This document shows, piece after piece, positions 1,056 through 28,810 of a stretch of 32,747 nt of DNA. The translations under genes were made by a program, and so were the position numbers. Below the pieces are notes generated by a model. It made no database searches, had not been told where the DNA came from, and saw only the letters and a list, made by a program, of their open reading frames with translations. The stretch lies in assembly GCA_030018435.1 (NCBI GenBank), contig JASEEY010000013.1:1-32747 (forward strand), in the 5' to 3' direction. Source of the stretch: Methanocellales archaeon (lineage in GTDB: Archaea > Halobacteriota > UBA148 > JAUWXC01). The stretch's first letter is position 1, and every line of letters begins with the position of its first letter.

Positions 1056-1285
1056 GCGGGGGTAGCCAAGTCAGGTCAATAACCTTTTTGCAAGCAAAAA
1101 GGTGGTTTCTGTTTCGTTCCAGATGGAACATCTGGAACTGCCCGCGAATCTTTGATTCGGGGCACACAGAAACAGCCTCTTTCTACGCAAGTAGAAAGTT
1201 GCTTAACCAAAAAGGATTGGCTAAAGGCGGTAGACTCAAGATCTACTCTCGCAGGAGTTCGTCGGTTCAAATCCGGCCCCCCGCA
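1056..1285 (+). tRNA. tRNA-Leu(CAA) with a 145-nt D-loop intron
   Basis: The exons form a class II tRNA-Leu. The acceptor stem pairs 1056-1062 (GCGGGGG) with 1278-1284 (CCCCCGC), followed by A1285. The anticodon arm pairs 1230-1234 with 1242-1246 around anticodon CAA at 1237-1239. There is a long variable arm (CTC/GAG) and a T-arm 1261-1277. The anticodon loop is uninterrupted. The D-arm is split after GGTCAA (1079) and resumes at AGGC (1225); joining gives GGTCAAAGGC, the normal leucine D-loop, and an 85-nt tRNA. A relaxed bulge-helix-bulge can be drawn (GTCA 1075-1078 with TGGC 1218-1221). A TATA-like stretch lies about 30 nt upstream. Confidence 0.88.
1080..1224 (+). other. tRNA-Leu intron at a non-canonical D-loop position
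   Basis: A 145-nt insert at about tRNA position 20/21. The base helix pairs CCTTTTTG (1083-1090) with CAAAAAGG. Inside, GGTTTCTGT pairs with ACAGAAAC and encloses two further hairpins (TTCCAGAT/ATCTGGAA and CGAATC/GATTCG). A separate hairpin CTTTCTAC-GCAA-GTAGAAAG follows. Several blocks are shared with the tRNA-Glu intron at 12240-12334. No open frame for an endonuclease is present. Confidence 0.8.
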
Positions 1286-1590: not shown

Positions 1591-2397
1591 ATGAATATGG
1601 ATTGGGGGATGAAAAACAGGCTTTCGCAACTGATTCAATCTGATGGTAGAGCTCTCTTTCTGCCCATAGATCATGGGTATTTCCAAGGACCCACACACAA
1701 ATTAGAAGAGCCAGGCAAAACTATTAAACCCCTCCTCCCCTACGCGGATGCGATTATGCTCACGAGGGGCATACTGCGCTCATGTGTTGATCCAGCCAAG
1801 ACGAAACCGATTATTCTCAGGGTTTCCGGTGGCACGAGCATGGCCAGAAAAGAGGAACTATCTCACGAAGGGATTACCACCTCTGTCAGAGAAGCCATCA
1901 GGCTCAATGCCAGCGCTGTATCCCTTTCTATCTTTGTGGGCAGCGAACACGAGCACGAGTCGTTGTTAAACCTATCGAACCTTGTTAACGAGTGCGAAGA
2001 GTATGGCATCCCGGTAATGGCAGTCACAGCTGTCGGAGCGGAGTTGGAGAAGCGCGAGGCACGATATCTCGCCTTATGCTGCAGGATTGCTGCCGAGTTG
2101 GGCGCACGAGTGGTAAAAACGTACTATGTTGAAGAAGGTTTTGAAAAGGTCGTTCGTGGCTGTCCGGTACCGGTCGTTATGGCAGGTGGGCCCAAAGTGG
2201 ACTCTGAGCTCGAGACCTTCGAGTTTGTTCATGATGGCATCCAGAAAGGTGCCATAGGCGTAAATTTGGGAAGAAATGTATGGCAATCGGATTACCCGGT
2301 GGCGATGATCAGAGCCATCCGTGCCATCATTCATGAAAATGCCACTCCGAAGGAGGCGCATGAGTTGTTCAACAGCATTAAAAAGGGCAAACAGTAG
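1591..2397 (+). CDS. lsrF: LsrF-type 3-hydroxy-5-phosphonooxypentane-2,4-dione thiolase / class I aldolase
   Basis: 268 residues matching the full length of the DeoC/LsrF (beta/alpha)8 family. Diagnostic pieces are DWGM near the start, PIDHGYFQGPT, LTRGILRS, VKTYYVEEGFE (active-site lysine), PVVMAGG and GRNVWQSDYPVAMIRA. LsrF transfers an acetyl group from the autoinducer-2 breakdown product to CoA. In archaea the true substrate is unproven, and related enzymes act in aromatic amino acid synthesis. ATG 1591 is chosen because AGGAGG lies directly upstream and this is where homology starts. The frame continues upstream into a Cys4 module (see 1360). The gene ends TAG-TAA. Confidence 0.85.
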   Translation: MNMDWGMKNRLSQLIQSDGRALFLPIDHGYFQGPTHKLEEPGKTIKPLLPYADAIMLTRGILRSCVDPAKTKPIILRVSGGTSMARKEELSHEGITTSVREAIRLNASAVSLSIFVGSEHEHESLLNLSNLVNECEEYGIPVMAVTAVGAELEKREARYLALCCRIAAELGARVVKTYYVEEGFEKVVRGCPVPVVMAGGPKVDSELETFEFVHDGIQKGAIGVNLGRNVWQSDYPVAMIRAIRAIIHENATPKEAHELFNSIKKGKQ

Positions 2398-2450
2398 TAA
2401 TGCACACGGAACGACCGAAGACCGCGTGCCCGAGCCCGACCACACATACT

Positions 2451-12094: not shown

Positions 12095-12197
12095 GGGCCC
12101 GTAGCTTAGTCTGGTTAGAGCGCTCGGCTCATAACCAACCTTTTTTGAGGGTTGTGGTGATACCGAGTGGTCATGCGTTCGAATCGCATCGGGCCCA
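12095..12197 (+). tRNA. tRNA-Met(CAT), elongator type, with a 28-nt anticodon-loop intron
   Basis: The acceptor stem pairs GGGCCCG (12095-12101) with CGGGCCC before A12197; the T-arm is ATGCG-TTCGAAT-CGCAT. The anticodon stem CTCGG/CCGAG encloses CTCATAA with CAT at 12130-12132. The intron is about 12134-12161 (canonical 37/38; the repeated A/ACC makes the boundary ambiguous by up to 3 nt, with the same product). Mature length is 75 nt. The intron contains AACCTTTTTTG, as do the other two tRNA introns in the window. CAT could in principle be an isoleucine tRNA read by a modified C34; no bases exclude this. Confidence 0.85.
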
Positions 12198-12199
12198 TT

Positions 12200-12369
12200 G
12201 CTCCGGTAGTGTAGTCCGGCCAATCATTCCGGCCTTTCGAGCAACCTTTTTTGGAAAAAAAGCGGGTTTCTGCTTTGCGGAAACACCTTCTGTCTGCGAA
12301 GCAGACCGAAGCTTGACCAAAAAAGGGCGAAGAAAGCCGAAGACCCGGGTTCAAATCCCGGCCGGAGCA
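12200..12369 (+). tRNA. tRNA-Glu(TTC) with a 95-nt anticodon-loop intron
   Basis: The acceptor stem pairs GCTCCGG (12200-12206) with CCGGAGC (12362-12368) before A12369. The T-arm is CCGGG-TTCAAAT-CCCGG. The anticodon is TTC at 12236-12238. The intron spans 12240-12334 at the canonical 37/38 position, with a clear bulge-helix-bulge: CTTT pairs with GAAG (12329-12332), and the 3-nt bulges are CG|A and AA|A. Mature length is 75 nt. One C-A mismatch (27-43) is left in the anticodon stem. The gene starts 2 nt after tRNA-Met, so the two are probably co-transcribed. Confidence 0.9.
12240..12334 (+). other. tRNA-Glu intron, homologous to the tRNA-Leu D-loop intron
   Basis: It folds into a base helix CCTTTTTTGG/CCAAAAAAGG, a hairpin GTTTCTGC-TTT-GCGGAAAC and a hairpin GTCTGC-GAA-GCAGAC. 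The last 48 nt before the end of the base helix align without gaps to the same region of the tRNA-Leu intron (see findings). Confidence 0.8.
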
Positions 12370-16704: not shown

Positions 16705-17279
16705 ACCAACCTCGCGATTATTGACCCTCCTGCTCTAACCCTGTCTCCTTTTTTAACGACGACATTGAACGCATCTGGAATTGTCACCTCCACCCTTGAT
16801 CCAAAGCGAACCATGCCTATCCTCTGTCCCTTTGCTATGACCTCTCCCTCTTTTACGTGACAAACGATTCTCCTTGCTAGAATGCCTGCAATCTGGGTCA
16901 CGATCACCTCTCCATATTCAGTTTCTATCGTAATCCTATTCTGCTCGTTTTCGCTCGAGCCTTTTGAAAATGCGGGTCTATGTTCTCCTTTCTTGTGTTC
17001 AATTTTCTTCACAACTCCTGAGATAGGTGCCCTGTTAACATGAACATCCCTAAACCTCATAAATATGCTCACTTTTTCGCCCGCCTGGAGCACCACACCG
17101 TCTGCAGGCGAGGCCATACCATCTCTTGGTGCTACGCGCTCGGGATCCCTAAAAAAGATCGTGAAAAAAGCTGTCATGATGACTCCGATGACCGTAATCG
17201 GGTACAACTTTAGGAGCCAAGCACCGACTGCTATGACCAGTGGCATCAAAATCCAATTAATCGAACCCTTTGCCAGCAT
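16701..17279 (-). CDS. asd: Archaetidylserine decarboxylase proenzyme (PssD/Asd)
   Basis: 192 residues, the short PSD type. An N-terminal hydrophobic hairpin (about 8-43) is followed by FFRDPER, SPADGVV and DVHVNRAPISG. The self-cleavage site is VRFGSRVEV: cleavage between G160 and S161 would leave a pyruvoyl group on the small C-terminal subunit. It makes archaetidylethanolamine from archaetidylserine. The start codon overlaps the end of the archaeosortase gene. In Haloferax, this enzyme and PssA are needed for archaeosortase-dependent lipid anchoring. Confidence 0.93.
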   Translation of the reverse strand: MLAKGSINWILMPLVIAVGAWLLKLYPITVIGVIMTAFFTIFFRDPERVAPRDGMASPADGVVLQAGEKVSIFMRFRDVHVNRAPISGVVKKIEHKKGEHRPAFSKGSSENEQNRITIETEYGEVIVTQIAGILARRIVCHVKEGEVIAKGQRIGMVRFGSRVEVTIPDAFNVVVKKGDRVRAGGSIIARLV

Positions 17280-18121
17280 CAGCTCCCTCCGAGATTTTTG
17301 AACATCCTCGCAACGTCTGCGATCAAATCCACCAGTTCAGGTAGGATTCGTAGCACTGCATATGCTATGACAAGCAGCGCTACGGTTGAACCAATCTTTG
17401 CGATGAGGTGGTGAGCTATGTAGAAGCTCTTATCCACGGGGCCGAACCACTGATATCCAGAAGCCACCACGACGAACACGTTTCTAAGTAGATTTAGCAA
17501 GTATATCCCTGGCACGGAAATCATGAAAGCCTTGATCCTGCGCTTGGTGGGTGCTTCAACCGCCCCTATCACTCCTGCGAATAGTGCCATGCTTTCAATG
17601 CCCGTACATGCAAGGATTATTTCGATATCATAGCGATTGACAAAGATGTGCTTGCCCGAGAATGTTGCTAGGACGCCCAACGAACGCAAAATCCAGACAG
17701 TTTGACTAGTCACAACATCTATTAGCCATGTATTTAGCGTGGAAACCTCGGCGAACGAGAAATAGAATACCCCACCAATTGCAGCCGCACATGTAATGGT
17801 ATACAGCGACTCCGTCGCTTTAAGCACCTTCGGTGCGTACAGTGTCTTCGACACCTTCTTCGACGCTTTCTTCGATACGTTCGAGAGATATGCCTTGGTG
17901 TTGAGGAGCGCAATGAATATGCAGAATATGCTGGTCAAAAACGTCAGCGTAGCGTTGTAAAAATCCCCTATTCCCAGATAGTACGTTGGTTCTATGGCCC
18001 AGTATATAGTAAAAAGTGCCCATCCAATGGCACCTACCAAGAACGAAGGCCTCTTGTTTCTGGGTCCTAGTGATGCAATTACGAATAATCCAAGCGCTAC
18101 CCAAAGGAAAGTCTCGAGCAT
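17279..18121 (-). CDS. artA: Archaeosortase A-like transpeptidase
   Basis: 280 residues with about eight membrane helices. The catalytic cysteine is C172 in ILACTGIES and the arginine R213 in LLNLLRNVF, at nearly the positions reported for Haloferax ArtA; H237/H238 (IAHHLIAKIG) or R258 would be the third polar residue. ArtA cuts surface proteins at a C-terminal PGF tripartite signal and joins them to an ether lipid. A lysine-rich cytoplasmic loop (KKASKKVSK) lies at about 84-92. First gene of the run artA-asd-pssA-mptD-NTPase-trm1. No PGF-CTERM substrate is seen in this window. Confidence 0.88.
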   Translation of the reverse strand: MLETFLWVALGLFVIASLGPRNKRPSFLVGAIGWALFTIYWAIEPTYYLGIGDFYNATLTFLTSIFCIFIALLNTKAYLSNVSKKASKKVSKTLYAPKVLKATESLYTITCAAAIGGVFYFSFAEVSTLNTWLIDVVTSQTVWILRSLGVLATFSGKHIFVNRYDIEIILACTGIESMALFAGVIGAVEAPTKRRIKAFMISVPGIYLLNLLRNVFVVVASGYQWFGPVDKSFYIAHHLIAKIGSTVALLVIAYAVLRILPELVDLIADVARMFKNLGGS

Positions 18122-23205: not shown

Positions 23206-23652
23206 GTGGTTAGGCCTAGAAAGAGTAGACGAGTCTGGTTTGAACCAGGGATTACATATTTTAAGCCAAGAGGAGTGCCCCTAGCAGACTTGGAAGAAGT
23301 TAGTTTAGCGGTTGATGAACTCGAAGCGATCAGGCTTAACGATGTGGAGAAACTGGAGCAAAAAGAAGCGGCTGAGAAAATGAACATTTCACAGCCAACG
23401 TTTCACAGGCTCTTGGAATCTGCCAAAAAGAAAATTGCAGATGCCCTGGTCAACGGCAAGGCCATAAAAATTCATGGGGGGAATTATGAGATGGCAGCGA
23501 GGAGATTCGAATGCTATGACTGTGGCATTGAATGGGAAGAACCATACGGAACGGGAAGGCCTGGCAAGTGTCCTAAGTGTAGCTCGACGAACATTCACAG
23601 GGCACTTGGAGATAGGGGTTATGCAAGACGTGGAAGAAGGGGACGTATTTGA
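23206..23652 (+). CDS. DUF134 family DNA-binding protein with zinc ribbon
   Basis: 148 residues. The N-terminal [23 protein letters not shown] and the sigma-like helix-turn-helix ([48 protein letters not shown]) define DUF134. A C-terminal zinc ribbon CYDCG ... CPKC follows. The GTG start at 23206 lies against a perfect palindrome, suggesting that this protein controls its own promoter and the downstream metallocluster genes. Its stop overlaps the next gene. Confidence 0.9.
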
Positions 23653-24440
23653 CGGGTGTAAATGTGACGTTAGGGAACATAAAACATATCGTAGTGGTGA
23701 TGAGTGGCAAGGGTGGCGTTGGAAAGACGACGGTGGCGGTTAACCTAGCTTTTGCCCTCTCGATGAGGGGGTATAAAGTTGGGTTGCTCGATGCAGACAT
23801 AACTGGACCGAATGCCCCTAAGATGCTGGGGATTGAAAATGAAAAGCTGCACAGCGATGGTGCATATATCACACCGGTCCTCATACCAATCGATGGTGCG
23901 CCCAGCATGAAAGTAGTTTCCATGGCATTTTTGATGGAAAAAGATTCTCCAGTCATATGGCGCGGCCCCCTCAAGATGAAGGCGATAGAACAATTCATCA
24001 AAGAGGTAAGATGGGGCTTGCTGGACTATCTAATAGTAGACCTGCCGCCTGGAACGGGCGACGAACCACTCAGCCTGGCACAGTTGATCCCAGATAGTGG
24101 CGCGCTCATCGTAACGACGCCGCAAGATGTTGCTCTATTGGATTCAAGGAGAACGGTCAACTTCGCGAAGCAGCTCAAAATGCCGGTGATTGGAATTGTG
24201 GAGAACATGAGTGGTTTCACCTGTCCCCACTGTGGAAGCGCTATTGATCTTTTCAAGACGGGCGGCGGTGAGAAAGCAGCTAGGGAATTAGGTGTGCCAT
24301 TCCTCGGCAGCATTCCGATTGACCACAAGGTCTGCGAGACAGGGGACGCGGGAAAGCCCCTTATGTTAGAACATAATTCACGTGCTGCAAAGTCGTTTGT
24401 GAAGATTGTAGACAGGATAGAAGCATCGCCAAAAGAGTGA
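23649..24440 (+). CDS. mrp: Mrp/NBP35-type Fe-S carrier P-loop ATPase
   Basis: 263 residues. Deviant Walker [12 protein letters not shown] (18-28), [24 protein letters not shown] and the C-terminal CPHC (C192/C195) that bridges an Fe-S cluster between two subunits. ApbC/NBP35 proteins hold and pass on [4Fe-4S] clusters. TTG 23649 overlaps the DUF134 stop; GTG 23664 is the alternative. First enzyme gene of the metallocluster run. Confidence 0.93.
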
Positions 24441-24450
24441 GATGATAAAT

Positions 24451-24624
24451 ATGCCAGCAAAAGTTGACGTGAGTATGTGTGTGGGGTGTGGAGTGTGCGT
24501 AAACGAGTGCCTTTTGGGCGCTATTTCACTGAACGACGAAATCGCCTCAGTTGACGAGACGCTATGCACAGAGTGTGGCGCATGTATCGATGCTTGCCCA
24601 AGCGGTGCAATTTCGTTAAAATAG
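24451..24624 (+). CDS. 2x[4Fe-4S] ferredoxin
   Basis: 57 residues with two classical cluster motifs, CVGCGVCVNEC and CTECGACIDACP, and the pseudo-twofold GAISL repeat after each. The second C of the first motif is followed by L rather than P. It is a small electron carrier, likely serving the Mrp and MinD-type ATPases beside it. An in-frame ATG at 24442 overlaps the mrp stop region and may be used instead. Confidence 0.9.
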   Translation: MPAKVDVSMCVGCGVCVNECLLGAISLNDEIASVDETLCTECGACIDACPSGAISLK

Positions 24625-24636
24625 GATGTGAAAAGA

Positions 24637-24891
24637 ATGCCAAGAGGATTCGGAAGAGGAAATCCATATCCATTCTGCAGACGATTTCCATGGCTACCTA
24701 GATGGTGGTGGACGGGTATGTATGGACCGATAACACCGTATGAATATGACATTCCCGCCTCGATGCTACCAGCGCCGATAGCACCTTGGTTTACCAAGGA
24801 GCAGGAAATCCAGATGTTGGAAAGTCAGGCAAAAGTGATAGAACAGCAATTAGAAGAAATTAGAAAACGGCTCAAAGAGCATCAAAAATGA
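24637..24891 (+). CDS. DUF5320-like coiled-coil protein 1
   Basis: 84 residues. An arginine/tryptophan/proline-rich N-terminus (MPRGFGRGNPYPFC, then WLPRWWW) and a C-terminal coiled coil (KEQEIQMLESQAKVIEQQLEEIRKRLKEH). This is the layout of DUF5320 proteins, found in anaerobes next to NifX-like and ferredoxin-ATPase genes; function unknown. The coiled coil is nearly the same as in the next two genes, suggesting they assemble together. Confidence 0.72.
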   Translation: MPRGFGRGNPYPFCRRFPWLPRWWWTGMYGPITPYEYDIPASMLPAPIAPWFTKEQEIQMLESQAKVIEQQLEEIRKRLKEHQK

Positions 24892-24898
24892 GGTGAAA

Positions 24899-25471
24899 AT
24901 GAAAATCGTAGTTGCAACGACCGTAGGGGGTTTAGACGACACGGTATCCCTCGTGTTTGGAAGATGTCCGACGTTTACGGTCGTAAACGTTGAAGGGAAG
25001 AAGATTAAGAATAGTTCCGTGATTCGGAATCAGTACGCAGGTGCAATGGGTGGTGCCGGCATTCAGGCAGCTCAGCTGGTCGTTAATCAAGGTGCAAAGG
25101 CGGTGATAGCTGGTAATTACGGTCCCAATGCATCCATGGTATTTAACCAGGCAGGAGTTGAGATTGTATCTGCACAAGGAATTAGCGTGAGAGATGCGGT
25201 GAAGAAATACCTAGAGGGGGAACTCCCTCCAATCACCGCAGCAACGATGCCAATGTTCGGTGGCATGGGAATGGGTGTAGGCAGGAGACGTGGAGGCGGT
25301 GGGAGAATGGGCATGGGGTTCATGCAACAGGCACCTACACCCCCTCCGATAATGCCGCCAATGCCTCAGGTGCCCAAAGGGCAAGAACTGCAGATGCTGG
25401 AAACTCAGATAAAGACATTCGAACAGCAGTTAGACCAGATCAAGAAAAGGCTCGAAGAGCTTAGAAAATAA
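24899..25471 (+). CDS. NifX/NafY-like domain fused to a Gly/Met-rich linker and coiled coil
   Basis: 190 residues. Residues 1-105 form the dinitrogenase iron-molybdenum cofactor-binding fold (KIVVATTVGGLDDTVSLVFGRCPTFTVV ... GAKAVIAGNYGP). A flexible stretch rich in G, M, R and P follows, then a C-terminal coiled coil like that of the DUF5320 neighbours. The usual HFGR is VFGR here, so the histidine is lost while a cysteine follows. GGTGA precedes ATG 24899. Confidence 0.85.
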   Translation: MKIVVATTVGGLDDTVSLVFGRCPTFTVVNVEGKKIKNSSVIRNQYAGAMGGAGIQAAQLVVNQGAKAVIAGNYGPNASMVFNQAGVEIVSAQGISVRDAVKKYLEGELPPITAATMPMFGGMGMGVGRRRGGGGRMGMGFMQQAPTPPPIMPPMPQVPKGQELQMLETQIKTFEQQLDQIKKRLEELRK

Positions 25472-25487
25472 AAAGGAGGTGATTTGA

Positions 25488-25820
25488 ATGCCAAACGGAT
25501 GGTTTGGATGGCGCAGATTTCAAGGATCGTGGCCTGGCAGAGGACCCTTCAGCCACCTACCACCTTGGGAAAGGCCAGGATGGCTTTACGGAAGAGGGGC
25601 TTGCTGGTGGCTTTTCGGACCACGAGGATATCCACCGATACCGGCGCCCTATGGATACGATATCCCAACCACAGCACCGGCACCCACAGGATATCCTTGG
25701 GCCCCGGCAACTCCAGCGATATCAAAGGAGCAAGAACTTGCTTGGCTGGAGGAGATGTTAAAGGCCTTAGAGCAAGAGCTAGAGCAGATTAAGAAGAGGC
25801 TGGCAGAGCTTAGAAAATAG
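25488..25820 (+). CDS. DUF5320-like coiled-coil protein 2
   Basis: 110 residues. AAGGAGGTGA, a full anti-16S match, precedes the ATG. The N-terminus is rich in W, G, P and R (WFGWRRFQGSWPGRGPF), followed by a proline-rich middle, then a coiled coil KEQELAWLEEMLKALEQELEQIKKRLAELRK (written by its ends KEQELAWLEE ... IKKRLAELRK). It ends in TAG. Same class as the gene at 24637. Confidence 0.72.
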   Translation: MPNGWFGWRRFQGSWPGRGPFSHLPPWERPGWLYGRGACWWLFGPRGYPPIPAPYGYDIPTTAPAPTGYPWAPATPAISKEQELAWLEEMLKALEQELEQIKKRLAELRK

Positions 25821-25840
25821 ATGCTAAATAGGAGGGTAAA

Positions 25841-25993
25841 ATGGCTGGACGAGGAAGAATGGGTGGTTTTGGTTTAGGTCCTGGTGGCAATTGCGTATGT
25901 CCAAATTGTGGGCATAAAACTCCACATGTAGCAGGGACGCCATGCTTTGACCAAACCTGCCCAAAATGTGGAAGTAAGATGACAAGAGAATGA
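25841..25993 (+). CDS. Small glycine-rich zinc-ribbon protein (50 aa)
   Basis: ATG 25841 follows AGGAGGG. The 50 residues start MAGRGRMGGFGLGPGG, then carry CVCPNCGHKTPH and CFDQTCPKCGSKM, a rubredoxin-like zinc or iron knuckle pair. This family accompanies DUF5320 and NifX-like genes in anaerobes. Function unknown; possibly metal delivery. Confidence 0.75.
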   Translation: MAGRGRMGGFGLGPGGNCVCPNCGHKTPHVAGTPCFDQTCPKCGSKMTRE

Positions 25994-26008
25994 TGGGAAT
26001 TCATAGGG

Positions 26009-26380
26009 ATGGGTGATAGCACGAAGGTATGTGTACCAACAATAGGGTTGGGCGGCATGAACGATACAGTGTCTCCGCATTTTGGGAGAGCGCCAACGTT
26101 CACCATAATTGACACGGAGACAAACGAAATAGAGGTATTGCCAAATACAGGTGAGCACATGGGCGGCATTAGGCTTGCACCAGAAATCATTGCAGAAACA
26201 GGCGCACACATAATGCTATGCTCTGGGCTAGGACCAAGGGCAATCCAGATGTTCGAGCAATTTGGCATCGAAGTCTTTGTCGGTGCTAGTGGAACTGTGA
26301 AGGATGCAATCAGCGCTTGGAAATCCGGAAAACTCCAAGTGGCTACTGACGAAACCGCCTGTAAAGAACACAGACACTGA
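26009..26380 (+). CDS. NifX/NifB-type dinitrogenase cofactor-binding family protein
   Basis: 123 residues: CVPTIGLGGMNDTVSPHFGRAPTFTIID, then HMGGIRLAPEIIAETGAHIMLCSGLGPRAIQMFEQFGIEVFVGA. The HFGR motif is intact, unlike in its relative at 24899. The tail CKEHRH may bind metal. Without nifHDK nearby, the role is probably carrying an Fe-S or related cofactor outside nitrogen fixation. Confidence 0.9.
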   Translation: MGDSTKVCVPTIGLGGMNDTVSPHFGRAPTFTIIDTETNEIEVLPNTGEHMGGIRLAPEIIAETGAHIMLCSGLGPRAIQMFEQFGIEVFVGASGTVKDAISAWKSGKLQVATDETACKEHRH

Positions 26381-26403
26381 ATTAGAGGGATAAGGGACCA
26401 TTG

Positions 26404-27237
26404 ATGATCATCTCCATAGCGAGTGGAAAGGGTGGTACTGGAAAAACCACAATAGCCACAAACATGGCACTATCTCTTAAAAATGTCCAACTCCTGGACT
26501 GCGATGTCGAAGAGCCAAATGCACACATTTTCCTAAAACCAGAAATTAAACAGCAGATATCAGTCTACACATCAGTGCCAAAGATCGATGAAACCAGGTG
26601 TGACTACTGCGGAAAATGCGCTGAATTCTGTGAGTTTAACGCACTTGTTGCGCTCAAGAACAAGATCATGGTGTTCCTAGAACTATGTCATGGATGTGGT
26701 GGCTGCCCAATCGTTTGTCCGAAAAATGCAATTACCGAGGAGGATAAAGAGGTCGGTGTGGTCAAAAAAGGAGTGGCTGGAGACATCGAATTCATATGTG
26801 GCGAACTCAATATAGGCGAGCCCATGGCAGTTCCAGTGATAAGGAGGGTGAAGAATGAGATCGACGATGATAAAACCGTAATCATCGATGCTTCACCCGG
26901 GACATCTTGCTCTGTGGTAGCGGCTGTGCATGGAACCGATTACTGCATACTTGTAACCGAGCCAACCCCTTTCGGTCTGCACGACCTCAAGCTGGCCGTA
27001 GAAGTGCTGAAGAAATTGGGAATCCCGTTTGGGGTTATAATAAACCGCGAGGGAATCGGAGACCAGAACGTCCAGGGGTACTGTAAAGAAGAGGGCGTTC
27101 CAATCTTGCTCACAATCCCCATGGACAGAAGGATCGCAGAGGTATACTCGCGCGGCGTACCATTCATCCTGGAGATGCCGGAATGGAAAGAAAAATTCTT
27201 AGAACTATTTGATAAGGTACAATCCATGCGTAGCTGA
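26404..27237 (+). CDS. MinD/ParA-type ATPase with inserted 2x[4Fe-4S] domain (1)
   Basis: 277 residues. Walker A ASGKGGTGKTT (6-16) and DCDVEEPNAH start a MinD-type fold; a ferredoxin domain is inserted at about 60-110 (C66, C69, C72, C76 and C95, C98, C101, C105). The ATPase fold resumes with VIIDASPGTSCSVV and TEPTPFGLHDL. Such proteins occur in pairs in anaerobes and are thought to couple ATP hydrolysis with Fe-S cluster or electron transfer. ATG 26404 is preferred over TTG 26401. Confidence 0.92.
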   Translation: MIISIASGKGGTGKTTIATNMALSLKNVQLLDCDVEEPNAHIFLKPEIKQQISVYTSVPKIDETRCDYCGKCAEFCEFNALVALKNKIMVFLELCHGCGGCPIVCPKNAITEEDKEVGVVKKGVAGDIEFICGELNIGEPMAVPVIRRVKNEIDDDKTVIIDASPGTSCSVVAAVHGTDYCILVTEPTPFGLHDLKLAVEVLKKLGIPFGVIINREGIGDQNVQGYCKEEGVPILLTIPMDRRIAEVYSRGVPFILEMPEWKEKFLELFDKVQSMRS

Positions 27238-27246
27238 GGGACATAT

Positions 27247-27936
27247 ATGAAATTGATAGATGACATACTAAGCTCAATAGACGAAGGACCAGCGGATGAC
27301 ATCAGGGTGGGGCTGAAATATACTGCAGTCCAGATTGGAAGTAGAATAGGCTTAGCGTACACATTTCCGGAATTCGGTTCACCTCCAAAAAATGTTGGGA
27401 ATCTCATCGGAACGAATACCCTGCCATTGGCAAAATCATGGAACCTTATTGAGGCATCGATTGGCGTCGCGAGCATAAATGCGCTTCTGACGCCGAGAGA
27501 TTATAAAGTTATGAACGTATTTGATCGCATCCTAGCGATTGCTCGAGATTATGATAAGATAGGAATCGTTGGTCGCTTTCCCTTCATTGATTCACTTGAT
27601 AAAGACGCATTTGTATTTGAAAGACGACCTATACATGGAACACTGCCAGATACGGCTGCAGAGGCATTGCTACCAAAGTGCGATCTGGTCGTGATATCAG
27701 GGAGTGCATTCGTCAATAAAACCCTACAAAGGCTATTGGAGATCAGCAAAGGCTATACATTAGTAATTGGACCTACTACACCCCTAACACCTATTCTATT
27801 CGAATATGGGGCTGATGTACTTGCCGGAGTTCAAGTTCACAATAAAAAAGCATTAGAAATCGTTAGCCAAGGTGGTGGTACACCTGACCTAAAGAGTGTG
27901 GTCGAGTTCATCTGTATGGAGGCTGATAAGCCGTAA
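27247..27936 (+). CDS. DUF364/DUF4213 putative heavy-metal chelation protein
   Basis: 229 residues. An N-terminal DUF4213-like part (VGLKYTAVQIGSRIGLAYTF, SWNLIEASIGVASINALL) and a C-terminal Rossmann-like DUF364 (KIGIVGRFPFIDSL, VFERRP, LPDTAAEALLPKCDLVVISGSAFVNKT, GPTTPLTPILFEYGADVLAG). Proposed to bind metal ions or metal cofactors. It lies between the two ferredoxin-ATPases, which points to a shared task. Confidence 0.88.
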   Translation: MKLIDDILSSIDEGPADDIRVGLKYTAVQIGSRIGLAYTFPEFGSPPKNVGNLIGTNTLPLAKSWNLIEASIGVASINALLTPRDYKVMNVFDRILAIARDYDKIGIVGRFPFIDSLDKDAFVFERRPIHGTLPDTAAEALLPKCDLVVISGSAFVNKTLQRLLEISKGYTLVIGPTTPLTPILFEYGADVLAGVQVHNKKALEIVSQGGGTPDLKSVVEFICMEADKP

Positions 27937-27952
27937 ATAAAGAAGTGGTCAC

Positions 27953-28810
27953 ATGAAACAGATAACGGTTGTAAGTGGAAAGGGTGGAACTGGAAAAACG
28001 ACTATTGCCGCCTCTTTTGCTGCGCTGGCGCACAATCATGTTATAGCGGACTGTGATGTGGATGCACCCGACCTTCATCTGCTTTTCGAGACGTGCCTGA
28101 AGGAAAAAGAGGAGTTTAGAGGTTCGAAAGAAGCAGTGGTAGACGAGGAAAAATGTATAGATTGTGGGAGATGTGAGAAAGCATGCAAATTTGGCGCGAT
28201 AGACGGTCATACGATAGACCCCATTTTATGCGAGGGCTGTGGCGTATGCGCATACGTCTGCCCTGAGAACGCCATAATGCTCAGGAAAAAGATTTCTGGA
28301 TATGCATTCATTTCTGAAACCAAATACGGTCCCATGATCCACGCCATGTTGAACATCGCTGAAGAAGCATCTGGAAAACTGGTCGCTCTTGTCAGAAATA
28401 AGGCACGAAAAATAGCAGAGGAGCAGGGAAGAGAGTTAATCTTGATAGATGGTCCACCCGGCATAGGCTGTCCTGTGATAGCATCTCTTACCGGAGTTGA
28501 TATGGCGCTGATCGTCACCGAACCAACGATGTCAGGTTTATATGATTTGGAAAGGATTTTGGAGCTAACTCACTATTTTGGCATAGTCTCTTTAGTATGT
28601 ATCAACAAATATGATATCAACAAAGAAAATACCAACCAGATAATCGAGTTCTGTCAGAGAAATGGTGTGAATGTGATAAGTAAAATTCCATACGATCCAA
28701 TTGTTACGGAGGCCATGGTCGCCGGAAAGCCCGTAGTTGAATTCTCTGATGGGAAAGTCTCAAGAGACATAGGGGAGATGTGGGATAATGTAATGTATGC
28801 TTTGAAGTGA
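27953..28810 (+). CDS. MinD/ParA-type ATPase with inserted 2x[4Fe-4S] domain (2)
   Basis: 285 residues, paralogue of the gene at 26404. Walker A VSGKGGTGKTT, DCDVDAPDLH, ferredoxin insert with C68, C71, C74, C78 and C93, C96, C99, C103, then LILIDGPPGIGCPVIASL and TEPTMSGLYDLERIL. The GPPGIGCP segment (ASPGTSCS in the first copy) is typical of this pair. The two probably form a heterodimer, as deviant Walker ATPases dimerise. Confidence 0.92.
   Translation: MKQITVVSGKGGTGKTTIAASFAALAHNHVIADCDVDAPDLHLLFETCLKEKEEFRGSKEAVVDEEKCIDCGRCEKACKFGAIDGHTIDPILCEGCGVCAYVCPENAIMLRKKISGYAFISETKYGPMIHAMLNIAEEASGKLVALVRNKARKIAEEQGRELILIDGPPGIGCPVIASLTGVDMALIVTEPTMSGLYDLERILELTHYFGIVSLVCINKYDINKENTNQIIEFCQRNGVNVISKIPYDPIVTEAMVAGKPVVEFSDGKVSRDIGEMWDNVMYALK

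Follow-up and report, generated by a model that had tools for sequence, protein, structure and literature searches.

We consider it somewhat probable that the intron bodies in the tRNA genes of this Methanocellales archaeon are mosaics built of small hairpin modules, that these modules have spread by copying at the DNA level, and that they are neutral to the host. According to the mechanism that we propose, an old hairpin core would supply the stem adjoining the splice bulges, and a two-hairpin module would later have entered the apical loop of this core and come to occupy many tRNA introns, RNase P RNA, and the protein gene hisD. EndA would remove the introns, and RtcB would join the exons.

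Interrupted tRNA genes of the window

The window is the whole 32,747-nucleotide stretch analyzed here, contig C4 of a 1.02-Mb draft genome in 29 contigs, whose sequence, like that of the congener G003, was read in stretches. ARAGORN, run without its intron option, found no tRNA in it. The features relevant to the argument are the following:

1056-1285, plus strand: tRNA-Leu(CAA) gene, interrupted in the D-loop, recognized from its sequence and from the orthologue in the congener G003, which has a different intron body
about 1079-1223 (ends ambiguous by 1-2 nt), plus strand: D-loop intron of tRNA-Leu, consisting of the core and a module with two nested hairpins
1116-1163, plus strand: the two nested hairpins of the tRNA-Leu intron, situated within the P1 loop of its module (GTTCCAGATGGAACATCTGGAAC; GCCCGCGAATCTTTGATTCGGGGC)
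12134-12161, plus strand: 28-nt intron of tRNA-Met(CAT), gene at 12095-12197 (ARAGORN with introns; Rfam, 57.7 bits)
12200-12369, plus strand: interrupted tRNA-Glu(TTC) gene (Rfam RF00005, 40.9 bits; orthologues in relatives)
12240-12334, plus strand: 95-nt intron of tRNA-Glu at the canonical position 37/38; the joined exons correspond to the intronless orthologue of G006
12243-12263, plus strand: left arm of the hairpin core (AACCTTTTTTGGAAAAAAAGC) in the tRNA-Glu intron, known free of the module from the tRNA-Glu of G004 and from tRNA-Leu genes on contigs C23 and C26 of this genome
12264-12308, plus strand: two-hairpin module inserted in the tRNA-Glu intron (covariance model match at 12255-12322, E 1e-19)
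12309-12326, plus strand: right arm of the hairpin core (AAGCTTGACCAAAAAAGG) in the tRNA-Glu intron

The initial annotation had placed the tRNA-Glu intron at exactly 12240-12334, and its excision restores a tRNA like that of G006. The joined product measures 75 nt and differs from the intronless G006 tRNA-Glu at 3 of 75 positions, none of them at the exon junction (CCTTTCGAGCCG), which is identical in both. A BHB drawn by hand has the central helix CUUU/GAAG and two 3-nt bulges at 37/38; the minimum-energy fold of the pre-tRNA, which surpasses 200 of 200 shuffles (z -4.3), pairs the splice-site region otherwise. Inside the intron, as in that of tRNA-Leu, a module of about 45 nt sits in the loop of a hairpin core of about 35 nt (AACCTTTTTGCAAGCAAAAAGCTTGACCAAAAAGG). 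The helices of the tRNA-Glu module are P1 (GTTTCTGC/GCGGAAAC) and P2 (GTCTGC/GCAGAC), and 4-nt direct repeats, AAGC, border it at 12260-12263 and 12309-12312.

Excision of the tRNA-Leu intron leaves 85 nt, the length of an intronless tRNA-Leu on C26. Several relaxed BHB pairings are possible at its splice sites, and we assume that the alpha'2-like EndA splices this D-loop intron. It matches the covariance model at 1094-1212 (E 3e-15). Two extra hairpins attributed to the Leu copy do exist, at 1116-1138 and 1140-1163 (fold z = -8.1), and G006 has the second one too, in a tRNA-Arg intron and likewise in the loop of P1.

The initial annotation gave the interval 12240-12334, outside which the Leu copy falls, and derived the common ancestry of the two introns from shared pieces that we recovered: AACCTTTTT(T)TG/AACCTTTTTG, GGTTTCTG at 12265 and 1104, GAAACA, and a 3' hairpin (GTCTGC/GCAGAC versus TTTCTAC/GTAGAAA) followed by GCTT[G/A]ACCAAAAA(A)GG. 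The 3' regions can be aligned as it described, except that the hairpin loop requires a gap of 1 nt. By itself, the pairwise likeness reaches significance but is modest, with a direct local alignment score of 31 that exceeds all 2000 dinucleotide shuffles (maximum, 30). The homology is secure because relatives hold intermediate copies. The tRNA-Met intron of the window, too, contains the shared arm AACCTTTTTTG.

In this genome, 28 of the 45 catalogued tRNA genes are longer than 90 nt; among 30 orthologous pairs with G003, 2 are equal in length and 19 differ by at least 10 nt. The genome encodes a two-domain, alpha'2-like EndA, closest to 1r0v, and RtcB (E 2e-172); judging from these genes, the tRNA introns would be excised by splicing. 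A DPANN/ARMAN host with an epsilon2 endonuclease was considered and rejected, as the nearest match of EndA is the Archaeoglobus-type 1r0v and the relatives are of the methanogen type (Halobacteriota-like).

Core and module across the order

Close relatives show the tRNA-Glu gene without an intron (G006), with the core only (G004), and with core plus module (this genome and G002), the exons being nearly identical throughout this series. The bare core of G004, a member of another family of the order, is AACCTTTTTGCAAGCAAAAAGCTTGACCAAAAAGG, and the module enters it after AAAAAGC in both this genome and G002. Diverged cores occupy the tRNA-Glu genes of family f3, and the outgroup G012, like G006, has no intron there. 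In this genome, the tRNA-Leu D-loop introns on C26 consist of the core, and that on C23 does likewise, slightly shorter at the end. What varies from one orthologous site to another is the hairpin module and not the whole intron.

The core is hosted by tRNA-Glu at 37/38 (G004), the tRNA-Leu D-loop, tRNA-Ser (G003), and RNase P RNA. Strict copies of the core or hairpin lie in or beside stable RNA genes in 14 of 14 cases, such loci making up about 1% of the genome. Reverse-oriented core copies occur in tRNA-Leu and RNase P RNA, and the core of the C26 tRNA-Leu stands in opposite orientations in this genome and in G003. The presence of one core in different RNAs, together with the likeness of modules within a genome, upholds the claim of common ancestry across different tRNAs and positions.

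A covariance model search of this genome and its relatives, which had been proposed as a check, yielded further copies and a positive answer on homology. The model (R1), built from 13 module copies, found 6 copies in this genome, 6 in G002 (63% complete), 8 in G004, and 1 in G009, with weak matches in G006, G007, G008, and G010. E-values reach 4e-24, and the module is restricted to the order. The congeners G001 and G003 gave no match, and in the outgroups, the remaining genomes of the phylum, no match surpassed E 1e-4; the weak matches outside the order (E 1e-4 to 4e-3) were taken as chance.

The hosts in this genome are the Glu, Leu, and Met introns, hisD, and two tRNA flanks on C26. All copies in G002 (Thr, Ile, Met, Gly, Asp, and Glu) and in G004 (two Leu, two Gly, Arg, Thr, Tyr, and Ile) lie within tRNA introns in sense orientation, so that across genomes the module is seen in Glu, Leu, Met, Thr, Ile, Gly, Asp, Arg, and Tyr introns. 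Module identity within a genome is 91% (G002) or 93% (G004), compared with 81% between the two, and copies in the same tRNA of two genomes are no closer (Gly module, 84% identical). Since identity is higher within than between genomes, the modules spread or were homogenized inside each genome.

Compensatory changes bear out the retention of a paired structure, which the initial annotation had read from two introns. Over 17 module copies, paired cells amount to 92.9%, compared with 88.1% in shuffles, and in six pairs both partners change (2.7 +/- 0.9 such pairs in shuffles). The covariation score, in which relatedness is not fully controlled, is 0.158 compared with 0.069 +/- 0.010 (0 of 500 shuffles as high), and covariation is seen in both module helices. 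Furthermore, the inner strand of the G004 module mostly varies with the arm of its host intron (AAGG...CCTT versus AAGT...ACTT); the hairpin is therefore kept paired or re-copied in place.

Copies outside tRNA introns and other palindromes

The hisD gene of this genome has gained 51 nt (17 codons) in frame that are 96% identical to the module of the tRNA-Glu intron. Relatives read ...DQPFEKSLTKTATIIASDM... at this site, and this genome reads ...DQPFEKKRVSALQKHLLSAQQTEALTKTATIIASDM..., with AAGC direct repeats of 4 nt again bordering the module. The empty site of G001, CAACCTTTTGAGAAAAGCTTGACCAAAA, resembles the intron core (CAACCTTTT, then AAAAGCTTGACCAAAA), a likeness that G003 otherwise shows only within its tRNA genes and RNase P RNA. 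This core-like empty site is as predicted by copying guided through short homology. The insert directly precedes the AQAEH motif, and HisD chains of known structure align there in two pieces. Over the part that was compared, a partial HisD of Methanocellales archaeon CSMAG_2674 agrees with the G002 protein.

Two other accounts of the hisD insert were rejected. It is not a whole intron, as relatives without it already have core-like flanks. As a BHB mRNA intron, it would have a base helix of only about 5 bp, and it keeps the reading frame; because of this reduced helix and the kept frame, translation is likelier than splicing. To judge from the sequence, the hisD copy is thus probably translated.

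Stable RNA genes other than those for tRNA are also occupied. The P3 region of the G009 RNase P RNA hosts the module in antisense orientation, and G003 has a bare core there, also antisense. In this genome, two further sites belong here:

C12, near 2300-2400, minus strand: two other inverted hairpins of the tRNA-intron kind in P3 of the RNase P RNA
C29, 3592-3643: core-like insertion of 52 nt within the 23S rRNA gene; G003 lacks it

Two further palindromic families, A and B, are dispersed in this genome, many copies having clean empty sites in G003 and several lying in frame in proteins. In-frame gains relative to G003 comprise HisD (+17 amino acids) and, from these two families, the CCA-adding enzyme (+17), a radical SAM protein (+9), and an IMP cyclohydrolase-like protein (+8); insertions at C24:44623-44773 lie where the reading frame is ambiguous and are at most candidates for such gains. 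Family A consists of tandem modular palindromes (TACGCGAAGCTTAAACGAAGTGTA), found among the matches listed at 13 places, many of them empty in G003, including C22:11081, C22:71781, C24:35240, and C27:54314. A CRISPR-like repeat, ATTTCAATCCCACTATGGTCTGATTTTA, forms an array at a contig end (C3:37840-38124), and a single repeat at C24:59091 adjoins a family A element. The family B palindrome (TGTTGAAATCCC..GGGATTACAACTCTCGCAGAT..) accounts for 17 in-frame amino acids of the CCA-adding enzyme (C27:25174-25221), absent in G003, and for an in-frame stretch of a MinD-like ATPase (C11:77358-77409) that G003 has too; its insertion at C28:48516 introduces a stop codon into a PIN-like ORF. In the window, a palindromic 48-nt in-frame insertion relative to G003 (17809-17856, about SKKVSKTLYAPKVLKA) lies in a minus-strand ORF (17279-18121) for an exosortase-like membrane protein. 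The window also holds three neighboring genes for ParA/MinD-like P-loop ATPases (23649-28810), two of them with 4Fe-4S domains.

Possible routes of copying and relation to known elements

DNA is most likely the level at which the modules were copied, a view that we favor with moderate confidence. Near-identical short arms (CAACCTTTT...AAAAGSTTGAYCAAAA) would have guided the process, either ectopic gene conversion or template switching. The modules are probably useless to the host and would persist because a hairpin is tolerated in an excised intron, an RNase P stem, or a protein surface loop.

A DNA element of the MITE or REP kind, mobilized by a trans-acting transposase with a preference for AAAAGSTTGAYCAAAA and target duplications of about 4 bp, is a distinctly minor possibility. 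The 4-nt repeats at the junctions (AAGC in tRNA-Glu and hisD, AAGG in tRNA introns of G002) could be target-site duplications, and the other hairpin families are scattered through this genome as clean insertions. However, families A and B lack a clear target duplication, and a search for transposases, limited to the Y1 family, gave no match above the cut-off. The inner strand of the G004 module, CCTT or ACTT, moreover fits the host-intron arm, which is unexpected for a fixed transposed unit.

Movement as RNA by reverse splicing, which the initial annotation had suggested, seems quite unlikely. Excised and probably circular introns would be reverse-spliced by EndA and RtcB into other structured RNAs, after which a DNA copy would enter the genome by recombination. 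The confinement of core and hairpin copies to stable RNA genes and their borders would agree with this, as would the finding that the module is in sense orientation in every tRNA intron where it was read, and the precise presence or absence of an intron between congeners (tRNA-Arg(TCT), 62 nt versus none). Against it, no reverse transcriptase (RVT_1) was found in this genome and 12 relatives, a set that includes 11 order members, and the Methanosarcina acetivorans control was positive. It is the module, not the intron, that moves; nested module insertions and the hisD copy are not bounded by splice sites, and copies also lie in tRNA flanks. The copies that stand reversed in tRNA-Leu and RNase P RNA point the same way, although an antisense orientation is by itself weak evidence, since a small hairpin can invert in situ, as the C26 tRNA-Leu illustrates in comparison with G003. 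It is very doubtful that the excised tRNA introns of the order act as mobile RNAs whose targets are tRNA, rRNA, RNase P RNA, and mRNA; hisD and RNase P RNA would then represent captured landing sites. Convergence, in which the likeness would stem merely from the need for U-run/A-run stems and simple hairpins, could accommodate the modest Glu-Leu score and is hardly tenable in view of the identical 35-nt cores across different tRNAs and genomes, the near-identity of the Glu module and the hisD insert, and the order-only distribution with its low E-values.

DNA-level copying of nested hairpins has partial parallels. In Thermoproteales, near-identical introns in different tRNAs indicate recent spread by a mechanism that is unknown, and the DNA level has been proposed (Fujishima et al. 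2010, as summarized in PMC4090602). Here too, near-identical introns occupy different tRNAs and positions and are gained or lost among close relatives. The present case, however, belongs to a different phylum, and what spreads is a nested hairpin module, shorter than the intron that holds it; RNase P RNA and a protein gene also carry copies, and close relatives have empty sites. For Caldiarchaeum, a tRNA disruption model invokes a 1.8-kb mobile element bearing a recombinase (PMC3293823). Both cases ascribe tRNA intron gain to mobile sequences at the DNA level, but the hairpins here are non-coding and without a known enzyme. Archaeal BHB introns are known in tRNA, rRNA, and cbf5 mRNA (PMC2738675, PMC4090602); the tRNA-Glu intron sits at the canonical position 37/38 in a genome encoding EndA and RtcB, whereas the hisD copy, unlike BHB mRNA introns, is in frame and probably translated.

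Rickettsia palindromic elements, 105-146 bp long and of unknown mobility mechanism, occur in proteins, tmRNA, and RNase P RNA (PMC2229807); the fusion of repeats into protein genes is also on record for archaea (Suyama et al. 2005, as cited in PMC2229807). By behavior alone, the elements described here resemble those of Rickettsia, as short palindromes in frame in conserved proteins and also in RNA genes, including RNase P RNA; they differ in measuring about 45-51 nt and in that hairpins of the same sort also form spliced tRNA introns. The archaeal work on fused repeats reportedly concerned M. jannaschii. A literature search short on subscription journals found no paper linking tRNA introns with palindromic elements, and the occurrence of nested hairpin modules in tRNA introns as well as in RNase P RNA and a protein gene is apparently new.

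For the origin and spread of archaeal tRNA introns, one case of large-scale transposition had been described, without a mechanism. Here, close relatives supply the intronless, core-only, and core-plus-module states of one tRNA, and the module in hisD and RNase P RNA ties the growth of tRNA introns to dispersing palindromic elements. The copying route thereby becomes testable in closely related genomes.
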